Of a stretch of 57,952 bases of DNA, positions 3,006-36,719 are shown one piece after another. Source of the stretch: Alphaproteobacteria bacterium. GTDB taxonomy: Bacteria; Pseudomonadota; Alphaproteobacteria; Puniceispirillales; Puniceispirillaceae. Below the pieces are notes generated by a model, which worked only from the letters and a program-made list of their open reading frames with translations, was not told where the DNA came from and did not search any database. Position numbers and translations under genes: made by a program. The DNA is taken from positions 1 to 57,952 of the forward strand of contig JABJAN010000008.1 in assembly GCA_018666135.1 (NCBI GenBank), in the 5' to 3' direction. Position 1 is the stretch's first letter. Each line of letters begins with the position of its first letter.

Positions 3006-3467
3006 ATGCTAGAAACCGGAACAAAAATCGAAGATTTCAATATACCAACTGATCGTGGGCATTTTACCTTATCTGATTATAGGGGAAAAAATGTTGTCAT
3101 GTTCTTTTTCCCAAGAGCAGATACATCTGGATGCACTAAAGAAGCGATTGCATTCACCTCTCTGCTAGCTGAATTTGATGCTGCTAACACTGTGGTGATT
3201 GGCATCTCTAAAGATACCCCAGAAAAACAAGCCAAATTTCGCTCTAAACATGATCTAGAGTGCATATTAGGCGCAGATCATGTAACCGATATTTGTGAGA
3301 GATTTGGTGTTTGGGTTGAAAAATCCATGTATGGAAAATCCTATATGGGCATTGAGCGTTCAACTTTTTTAATAGACCCAGATGGTAAAATAACAAAGAT
3401 TTGGCGCAAAGTAAAAGTACCTGGTCATGCTGAAGATGTGCTAGCACAGGTGCAAGCAGGCGGCTAA
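3006..3467 (+). CDS. bcp: Peroxiredoxin of the BCP/PrxQ family
   Basis: This is a 153-residue thiol peroxidase that reduces hydrogen peroxide and organic hydroperoxides. The active-site stretch PRADTSGCTKEAIAF puts the peroxidatic cysteine at C43, with the usual T and nearby P. Five residues later, where E. coli BCP has its resolving cysteine, there is I48, so this is a 1-Cys or atypical form. Other cysteines (about C82 and C92) could act instead. The length is normal for the family. The stop codon overlaps the ATG of the DUF455 gene by one base (TAATG), so the two are probably translationally coupled. A good promoter lies just upstream. Confidence 0.92.
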   Translation: MLETGTKIEDFNIPTDRGHFTLSDYRGKNVVMFFFPRADTSGCTKEAIAFTSLLAEFDAANTVVIGISKDTPEKQAKFRSKHDLECILGADHVTDICERFGVWVEKSMYGKSYMGIERSTFLIDPDGKITKIWRKVKVPGHAEDVLAQVQAGG

Positions 3468-4267
3468 TGCATGTACGGGATATTTGCCCACATCTTTTGT
3501 GTGCATTTACAAAATCAGATGCAACAGAAAAAGCCCTTCTAACACGGCAAATAGCACATTCTTTTAGTGCAGAAGAATTTTATGTTGCTAATCCATGCCC
3601 AGTTCCAATGCGGCCAGGCAGACCAAAACAGCCTGAATTAAAACCTCCGAAAGATATGCCCAGAAGACGTATTAATTCTGCGCCTGCAGGCAGAATTGCG
3701 CTAATTCATGCGATTGCTCACATTGAATTAAACGCCGTTGACCTTGCGCTTGACATGATAATGCGCTTCTGTGACCACCAATTACCTCTTGATTATGTGA
3801 AAGATTGGATGCGTGTTGCAGATGATGAAGCACGCCATTTCTTAATGTTGAATGATAGGTTGGGTGAGCTTAATAGCTATAATGGGGCACTCCCTGCACA
3901 TGATGGGTTATGGTAAGCAGCAGAGGAAACGGCACATGATTTGCTCGCAAGACTAACCATCACGCCGTTGGTGTTTGAAGCTCGTGGTCTTGATATTAGG
4001 CCTCAGTTAATTGCTAAGATGCATAAAATAGGAGATAACAAAACCGCAGATTGTTTTAAGATTATAATGGAAGATGAAATTGGTCATGTGCGAACTGGCA
4101 AGAACTGGTTTGACTATGAATGTGGCAGACTTCGTGAAGACCCTATAAGCACGTGGCAAAAAGCTGTTACCACCTACTTTCATGGCACACTTAAACCACC
4201 TTTTAATATTGAAGCACGTGATGCAGCACGGTTTTCTGCTGCTTTTTATAAGCCAATCTCTGGGTAA
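3467..4267 (+). pseudogene. DUF455 ferritin-like protein, interrupted by one in-frame TAA
   Basis: The reading frame starts at the ATG overlapping the bcp stop and would give 266 residues, the normal DUF455 size, except that codon 150 (3914-3916) is TAA. The flanking residues HDGLW-stop-AAEETAH match the family's usual W-E-A-A pattern, so a GAA-to-TAA change explains it. Downstream, the frame stays open to 4267. Ferritin-like metal ligands are seen in both halves: E87 and E121xxH124 before the stop, E171 and E204xxH207 after it. No ATG or ribosome binding site lies near the second half; its first alternative start is a TTG at 3941. It is a fresh pseudogene, a sequencing error, or a split or readthrough gene. 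The function of DUF455 is poorly known. Confidence 0.85.
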
Positions 4268-4276
4268 AATTATATT

Positions 4277-4312
4277 CTGGCTGGCTGGCTTGACTGACTG
4301 GCTGGCTGGCTA
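4277..4312. repeat. Tetranucleotide repeat (CTGG/ACTG/GCTG, 9 units)
   Basis: Nine 4-bp units in register (CTGG x3, CTTG, ACTG x2, GCTG x2, GCTA) fill the space between the DUF455 pseudogene and prfB. The last unit contains the prfB stop codon (TAG on the minus strand at 4310-4312). Slippage would not change the RF2 protein because the repeat lies after its stop. Confidence 0.85.
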
Positions 4313-5416
4313 TCTAGTCATGCCTACTCTTGCTGCTAGACCTGCTTCAATGAAATCATCTATATCTCCATCCAAAACAGCTTGTGTATTCCCAGTTTCG
4401 ACTTGGGTTCTAAGATCTTTTACCATCTGATAAGGGTGCAAAACATAAGAACGTATTTGGCTACCCCAGCCATTTTCAGCTTTGCTGGCATTACCTTCAA
4501 TCGCTGCATTTTCCCGTTTCTGAAGCTCCAACTCATATAATCGTGCCCGCAGCATTTTCATAGCTGTTGCTCTGTTCCGATGCTGAGATCTATCCGACTG
4601 ACACTGCACAATAATATTTGTTGGAATATGGGTTATTCTGATCGCAGAATCTGTGGTGTTAACATGTTGTCCGCCAGCACCAGATGCTCTGAAAGTATCT
4701 ACACGCAAGTCTTTCTCTTCTACTTCAATATCAATATTATCGTCTATCTCTGGATAAACCCAAACACTTGAAAAACTTGTATGGCGCCTAGCAGAACTAT
4801 CAAAAGGAGAAATTCTGACCAGCCTATGAACTCCTGATTCTGTTTTCATCCAACCGTAACTGCTGTCACCAGCGATTCGAATTGTAGTAGATTTTATGCC
4901 AGCCTCCTCACCGTCAGCTTGGTCAATTACTTCAACCTTAAAGCCTCGATGCTCTGCCCATCTTATATACATTCGAAGCAACATAGATGCCCAGTCTTGC
5001 GCTTCTGTACCACCCGCACCTGAATGAATTTCAACAAAACAGTTATTTTTATCTGCTTCTCCTGATAACAGGCTGGCAATCTGTTTCTTGCCTGCAATCA
5101 AAGAGAGCTGTTTTATGGAGTTTTCAGTCTCATGAATCAATTCTTCATCTTGTTCATCATTCGCAAGTTCAAGCATTTCCAACTGCTCAGTCAATCCATC
5201 TTGCAATTCTCTAATATTTTGGATTTGTGTTTCCAGCGTTGTTTTTTCTCGCATTAAATCTTGCGCTGTTTGCTGATCGTTCCAAAAATCTGGCTCTGAA
5301 CTCTTCGCTTCGATCTCAGATATTCTGTTTAGTGCCTGCTGCCAGTCGACATGCTGTTTTAATAAATCAATTGCTTGCTTTATAGCGTCTAAAGAGTGCT
5401 GGGTTTCTGCTTGCAT
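4310..5416 (-). CDS. prfB: Peptide chain release factor 2
   Basis: This 368-residue class I release factor ends translation at UGA and UAA. The catalytic GGQ is in RASGAGGQHVNTTDSA in the central domain, and the stop-recognition tripeptide region SPFDSSARRHTSF lies just before it. The N-terminal coiled region is complete. The frame is continuous from the ATG at 5416, so the programmed +1 frameshift of E. coli prfB is absent, which is common in alphaproteobacteria. It follows mrcA and amiC on the same strand, but a hairpin with a T-run between mrcA and prfB suggests its own transcript. Confidence 0.97.
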   Translation of the reverse strand: MQAETQHSLDAIKQAIDLLKQHVDWQQALNRISEIEAKSSEPDFWNDQQTAQDLMREKTTLETQIQNIRELQDGLTEQLEMLELANDEQDEELIHETENSIKQLSLIAGKKQIASLLSGEADKNNCFVEIHSGAGGTEAQDWASMLLRMYIRWAEHRGFKVEVIDQADGEEAGIKSTTIRIAGDSSYGWMKTESGVHRLVRISPFDSSARRHTSFSSVWVYPEIDDNIDIEVEEKDLRVDTFRASGAGGQHVNTTDSAIRITHIPTNIIVQCQSDRSQHRNRATAMKMLRARLYELELQKRENAAIEGNASKAENGWGSQIRSYVLHPYQMVKDLRTQVETGNTQAVLDGDIDDFIEAGLAARVGMTR

Positions 5417-35420: not shown

Positions 35421-36719
35421 ATGGCTAAAACGCACCTAGATAGAGGCACTGGTGGGCTTACCCAAAAATCAAAGCGCTACTCTATCTTTTCCCTTGCCCG
35501 AAATGCCGCCAGCTATCATCAGAACTGGCAGCAGGCATGGCGCCATGCAGAACCAAAACCTGCATATGATGCTGTGATAATTGGCGGTGGTGGTCATGGT
35601 CTTGCTACTGCCTATTATCTGGCAAGTGTGCATGGCATCACCAATATTGCTTTAATTGAAAAAGGGTGGTTAGGAGGCGGAAACACAGGCAGAAACACAA
35701 CCATCATTCGCTCTAACTATATGTGGGATGAGTCAGCTGGGATATATGAGCATGCGTTAAAATTATGGGAGGGTCTATCACAAGATTTGAATTTTAATGT
35801 GATGTTCAGCCAAAGAGGTGTTTTAACAATAATCCATTCAGAACATGAATTAAAAGAAATGTCACGCAGGGTGCATGCTATTCGCTTGAACGGAATTGAC
35901 TCTGAAATATTAAGCCCCACTGAAATCAAAAAAATGGTGCCAACTATAAATATTGACCCAAATATTCGTTACCCGGTGATGGGTGGTTTTATACAAAAGC
36001 GGGGAGGTACAGCCCGCCATGATGCTGTCGCATGGGGATATGCAAGAGCAGCAGATGACCTTGGCGTAGATATAATTCAAAATTGCGAAGTGACTGGTTT
36101 GCGCCGAACTGGAAAGCAAATAACAGGCATTGAAACAACAAAAGGATTCATAAAAACCCAAAAAGTTGGCTGTGTCGTTGCTGGACATTCAAGTGTTCTG
36201 GCAGATATGGCAAATATACGACTTCCTATTGCTAGTAGACCGCTACAGGCACTGGTATCAGAGCCAATAAAACCAATTCTGGATACAGTTATAATGTCTA
36301 ATGCTGTTCATATGTATTTAAGCCAATCTGACAAAGGTGAAATGGTGCTTGGTGCTGGGGTAGATAAATATAACTCATATGCACAGTCAGGGTCATGGCC
36401 GATTCCAGAACATATGATAGCTGCTGCTGTTGAGCTATTTCCATTTTTATCTCGCTTACGCATGCTTCGCCATTGGGGCGGCATTGTTGATACCTGCCCT
36501 GATGCATCACCAATTATATCAAAAACAGATATAAATGGGCTTTATTTTAACTGTGGATGGGGGACAGGTGGATTTAAATCCACACCTGGATCAGGTCATG
36601 TTTTTGCTGATTTAATTGCTAATGACAGACCAAATTCAATTGCGTTACCTTATAGTCTGAAAAGGTTTGAGACAGGGTATCTTATTGACGAGCATGGAGC
36701 TGCTGGTGTTGCTCATTAA
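35421..36719 (+). CDS. soxB: Sarcosine oxidase beta subunit
   Basis: This 432-residue flavoprotein subunit of heterotetrameric sarcosine oxidase oxidises sarcosine to glycine and passes the methyl carbon to tetrahydrofolate. The FAD-binding motif is [17 protein letters not shown]; the conserved [11 protein letters not shown] is typical of SoxB. His200 in [12 protein letters not shown] fits the position of the covalent FMN histidine. The active-site end reads [22 protein letters not shown] precedes the ATG. First gene of soxBDAG. Confidence 0.96.

Follow-up and report, generated by a model that had tools for sequence, protein, structure and literature searches.

We identify a DUF455 gene interrupted by a single in-frame stop codon in a 57,952-nucleotide stretch (the window) of an alphaproteobacterial genome of the Puniceispirillaceae (G000), and we consider it quite likely that the break marks a pseudogene created very recently by a nonsense change, or else an allele of this kind within its species. 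Within one genus and at one locus, the gene is found intact, with one stop, with many lesions, as fragments or without a clear trace, a series of stages indicating that the loss has been both recent and repeated. In the case described here, a once-functional gene for a ferritin-like, predicted di-metal protein, the next gene after bcp, would have lost its function very recently through one nonsense substitution, at codon 150. Two observations favour a pseudogene: the locus is decayed or fragmentary in most other members of the genus, and among the 44 conserved ORFs compared across the window an internal stop was found in DUF455 alone. Against it stand the presence of only a single lesion and the retention of the ligand-like residues, which leave some probability to a functional gene or to a sequence error.

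The DUF455 ORF runs from an ATG at 3467 to the TAA at 3914–3916 (149 codons), downstream of which the identical frame is open up to a stop at 4265–4267 (Table 1). The two parts match adjoining ranges of the PF04305 profile, positions 2–134 for the upstream part (E = 5.7e-43, 147.7 bits) and 136–247 of 247 for the downstream part (E = 9.4e-40, 137.2 bits), both above the curated cut-off of 34.3 bits; the NCBIfam search returned no family for either part. Over residues 3–265 the read-through frame is 77–78% identical to the intact orthologues of two congeners, G005 and G006, so the open frame beyond the stop is not due to chance, and it aligns with both without an internal indel, only the C-terminal tail being different. 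A hidden frameshift is ruled out, as the two parts follow each other in a single frame both on the PF04305 profile and in the alignment to G006. A preliminary description of this DNA had recognized one DUF455 gene with exactly one in-frame stop and neither a frameshift nor a deletion, which these comparisons bear out apart from the C-terminal tail. A second DUF455 copy was not found in G000, where a single match was obtained from a genome that is 92% complete.

On the upstream side, bcp and DUF455 overlap by a single base, shared by the end of the bcp stop codon and the start of the DUF455 ATG. The bcp product matches AhpC-TSA (PF00578, E = 7.1e-32), and its best NCBIfam model, the thiol peroxidase NF006960, scores 128 bits, under the cut-off of 140. 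The convergent gene on the other side is, by its sequence, probably prfB, encoding peptide chain release factor 2. Between the DUF455 and prfB stops lies a CTGG tandem repeat of 8.5 copies (4277–4311), which was not seen in G005 or G006. The GC content of the window is 39.8%.

Table 1 Features of the bcp–DUF455–prfB locus in the window
Feature	Coordinates	Strand	Basis
bcp/PrxQ-type peroxiredoxin gene	3006–3467	+	ORF; Pfam and NCBIfam matches
DUF455 upstream part (149 codons plus premature TAA; helices A and B)	3467–3916	+	ORF, PF04305, structure model
Premature in-frame TAA (codon 150), between predicted helix B (108–134) and helix C (159–176)	3914–3916	+	
DUF455 downstream part (116 codons plus original stop; helices C and D)	3917–4267	+	Frame, PF04305, structure model
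Restart candidate region (TTG 3941; AGAGGA 3922–3927)	3922–3943	+	
prfB (presumed), convergent downstream neighbour	4310–5416	−	ORF; position common to 10 of 10 genus genomes

All 25 intact copies read from the bacterial family encode an amino acid at the stop site (17 Gln, 7 Glu and 1 Arg). The Gln codon is CAG in G005 and G006, and CAA both in the outgroup G019 and in the pseudogene of another congener, G007. An origin of the stop by a change from GAA to TAA, as the preliminary description had it, is therefore unlikely given that the nearest relatives carry Gln; the intact relatives with a sense codon at this position, which it named as a sign of an error or a strain-specific mutation, do exist, with Gln rather than Glu in the closest of them. 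Its dismissal of codon reassignment stands, TAA being an ordinary stop here (among 40 ORFs counted in the window, 24 end in it), and reassignment is accordingly ruled out. The same counts bear on readthrough of the TAA to yield some full-length protein, to which we assign the lowest probability of all the explanations weighed. It draws on the constraint that still held for the entire gene on the G000 branch; it is opposed by the regular use of TAA for termination in the window and by the sense codon in every intact copy, which argues against conserved recoding.

The read-through protein was modelled with AlphaFold2 from an alignment of 29 rows that included 28 of 47 named relatives, with a mean pLDDT of 88.1 and a pTM of 0.89. 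The model contains four long helices, A to D (residues 73–101, 108–134, 159–176 and 191–222), and places the stop (residue 150) in the linker that separates helices B and C (135–158). The ligand-like residues E87, E121/H124, E171 and E204/H207 are kept in G000 and are invariant across the 29 rows; since these rows were retrieved with short peptide patterns that included AAEETAHD, invariance near residues 151–158 is partly built in. The position of the stop between the helix pairs of the model agrees with the original reading that it divides two halves, each with one Glu and one ExxH. The model resembles a ferritin-like four-helix bundle, and the titles of its listed structural matches name ferritins, bacterioferritins, Dps and further proteins of the ferritin-like type. 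Aldehyde-deformylating oxygenases rank first (4kvr: model residues 71–266, Z 14.8, rmsd 2.9 over 180 residues), with Dps-like proteins and bacterioferritins close behind (4cvs: residues 71–226, Z 14.1, rmsd 2.9 over 148 residues), although Z values of this size carry only moderate weight for helical bundles and, at an identity of just 14–17% to aldehyde-deformylating oxygenases and bacterioferritins, the common fold shows no function. The best Foldseek E-value for the model was 0.021, and a sequence search of the PDB gave no convincing match (best E 0.053, a nanobody). From the model, the DUF455 product is probably a ferritin-like, di-metal protein, as yet uncharacterised; we found no published function for DUF455/COG2833 in the literature consulted, including the available portions of PMC4520260 and PMC12090721. 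Translation of the interrupted gene would most likely halt after helix B. The resulting 149 residues would lack helices C and D together with half of the ligand-like residues, and hence would form no working bundle.

The bcp gene upstream and prfB downstream bound the locus in all ten genomes of the genus (G000–G009), and the space between them, stop codons included, varies from 848 bases in G000 and 833 in G005 and G006 to 636 in G007, 557 in G001, 401 in G002 and 294–295 in G003, G004, G008 and G009. DUF455 lies intact between these flanks in G005 and G006, the orthologues at the same locus as the frame that is disabled by one stop in G000, and in G007 it has accumulated several stops and six indels, namely a 1-base insertion and deletions of 1, 28, 1, 6 and 152 bases. 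With the G006 gene as reference, G002 retains an eroded 5′ part (z 19; score 140 against 54 for the best of 100 shuffles), and G003, G004, G008 and G009 retain an eroded 3′ part (z 7.0–8.6; 71–75 against best shuffles of 46–53). These 3′ remnants are weaker with G000 as reference (z 2.9–4.5; 58–67 against best shuffles of 53–70), those of G003 and G008 then scoring no higher than the best of 100 shuffles. No clear DUF455 trace was found in G001 (z 2.2 and 0.9; score 51 against a best shuffle of 53 with G006 as reference). The nine other genomes are 61–95% complete, and as the locus is present with both flanks in each of them, the missing DUF455 is not caused by incompleteness. In a tree of bcp and prfB, G000 branches as the sister lineage of its nine congeners (support 93), which fall into a clade of G005–G007 and a clade of G001–G004, G008 and G009; taken with the eroded loci, and if the gene was never regained, this topology implies that it was inactivated independently three times or more within the genus. 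The G000 lineage would thereby repeat a loss that has been carried further at the same site in other species of the genus.

Branch-specific codon models, run first with ten relatives and then with six, place the interrupted gene under constraint for most of its separate history. The dN/dS on the G000 branch was 0.105 with ten relatives and 0.097 with six (omega = 1 rejected in the latter, p 0.009), against a background of 0.08, and on the G007 branch it was 0.51 and 0.47 (omega = 1 not rejected, p 0.054). By part, the G000 ratio was 0.173 for the 5′ part and 0.051 for the 3′ part, neither of which alone rejects omega = 1 (p 0.09 and 0.20). Synonymous sites are near saturation (pS 0.72 from G000 to G006), so branch lengths are rough; the ratio of about 0.10 implies that constraint held until recently. 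In relative-rate comparisons, dN over the whole gene was higher in G000 than in G006 by 0.000 to 0.045, with the interval excluding zero for two of six outgroups, and for the 3′ part the difference (G000 minus G006) was −0.002 to 0.064, again excluding zero for two of six. At 3 of the 91 columns that are invariant in the 25 intact copies G000 departs from the consensus (A164T, L170F and T178R), in each case after the stop; when each intact copy was left out in turn, 23 of the 25 departed at 0 or 1 invariant columns and the other two at 5 and 10. The post-stop departures may be a weak sign of early relaxation. Constraint thus appears, from these substitution patterns, to have held along most of the G000 branch, with at most faint relaxation afterwards. 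The synonymous distance between G007 and G006 is only 0.52, yet G007 has six indels, and the one lesion in G000 by comparison points to a young stop.

A sequencing or consensus error, or a base from a minority strain in the consensus of a fragmented genome, with the real gene intact, is an alternative that we regard as unlikely, though it deserves more weight than the others. It is favoured by an assembly of 134 contigs at 92% completeness, by a DUF455 gene that is otherwise undamaged and keeps its ligand-like residues, and by the dN/dS of about 0.10 just described, whereas the 43 other conserved window ORFs compared, with 52,743 window bases covered in all, showed no internal stop, so such consensus errors are rare here. 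The sole break, moreover, falls in a gene that is decaying within this genus, and three changes after it lie at otherwise invariant sites. This comparison used 44 query ORFs of at least 90 codons taken from stretches of G004, G005, G006 and G009 and picked greedily for window coverage; the stops in five other ORF alignments sit upstream of the ORF starts, and the window ORF at 35421–36719 was covered solely by a 21% identical paralogue. A generally poor assembly is likewise not favoured as the cause, with one of 44 conserved ORFs, DUF455, containing an internal stop.

Across the bacterial family, a PF04305 match was obtained in 32 of 61 genomes, comprising the 25 copies without internal stops, the disrupted copies of G000, G007 and G061, and partial matches in G017, G021, G069 and G077, of which that in G069 ends at a contig end. 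G061, from another genus of the family, holds a decayed DUF455 in which W214 and L242 are each replaced by an in-frame stop and which differs at 13 of the columns that do not vary among the 25 intact copies. Ligand-like residues are changed in G061 (L162/L178; E87V and E204K). Among 387 genomes of the class with a completeness of 90% or more, 149 gave a PF04305 match, 140 of them above the cut-off, and among the class matches listed, weak ones left out, an internal stop occurs only in G000 and G172, one in each. The copy in G172 (L174, C5:222770-223507, minus strand), from another family of the class, is an otherwise full DUF455 with an independent single in-frame TAA.

The location of these breaks is relevant to a further explanation, which we hold to be very unlikely, namely that the A–B and C–D halves are produced separately, through termination and re-initiation, and come together as a working bundle. 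The stop does lie in the B–C linker of the model, but this linker takes up 24 of 266 residues (9%), which makes such a position only mildly unlikely by chance. Similarly, the 3′ part is the more conserved (dN to G006 0.092 against 0.194 for the 5′ part), but a lower 3′ dN is also seen between the unbroken genes of G006 and G019 (0.223 against 0.298). An in-frame TTG at 3941 starts 24 bases past the stop and is the nearest in-frame start; the AGAGGA at 3922–3927 is 13 bases from it and 8 bases from an out-of-frame ATG at 3936 that opens a six-residue peptide. The preliminary description had raised a ribosome binding site before 3941, and the spacing of AGAGGA lends little support to a restart there. 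The other breaks examined lie elsewhere: after helix C in G172 (at ...GLDISP*IIN), as a frameshift in helix C in G111 (L175), as the absence of an internal part in G314 (L176) and at W214 and L242 in G061. Among the interrupted copies examined from the 61 family genomes and the listed matches of the 387 class genomes, a recurrent split at one place is ruled out, the breaks of G007, G061, G111, G172 and G314 being elsewhere or multiple. Slightly less credible again is the fuller claim that the stop is tolerated in G000, both helix-pair halves (one Glu and one ExxH each) being translated and reassembling into a di-metal bundle; if true, a four-helix enzyme would have been caught in the act of splitting into two subunits. 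From the list initially drawn up of fresh pseudogene, error, readthrough and assembling halves, the fresh pseudogene emerges as the best supported, and the half-proteins find no support in recurrence.

Pseudogenes that are recent and carry a single nonsense change are a known bacterial class. The window gene is like them in that a single change disables a frame that is intact elsewhere, and in having orthologues that are intact, decayed or fragmentary at the same locus; it is distinct only by the neat position of its stop between helix pairs. With respect to the DUF455/PF04305 family, it shares the match of both parts to adjoining profile ranges, the predicted ferritin-like bundle and the bcp neighbour, and differs by one in-frame stop. 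We infer that the stop is real in cells, that the product does not function and that G000 can dispense with the gene; its loss is ordinary gene loss. The series of stages across the genus suggests that these bacteria can do without this uncharacterised ferritin-like protein encoded next to a peroxiredoxin, and may be useful in the search for the function of DUF455.

The pairing with bcp extends well outside the genus. A bcp match was located no more than 250 bases upstream of DUF455 on the same strand in 43 of 47 named loci (L085–L131; the four without such a match are L088, L094, L095 and L097), which range, by record title, from Sphingomonas and Sphingobium to Kiloniellaceae, and 27 loci of the bacterial family (L136–L162, the window's included) sit between bcp and prfB. 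The pair is therefore old and the losses came later, and the adjacency suggests a role shared between bcp and DUF455 in peroxide or iron handling. The window probably belongs to the SAR116 clade, of which PMC8547437 describes one subclade as streamlined. In seven further genomes (G010, G013, G020, G023, G026, G031 and G036) the bcp and prfB matches lie only 27–53 bases apart without a DUF455 match, and G080 and G081, which belong to genus g2, have retained DUF455, a contrast that indicates a patchy presence within genus g2.
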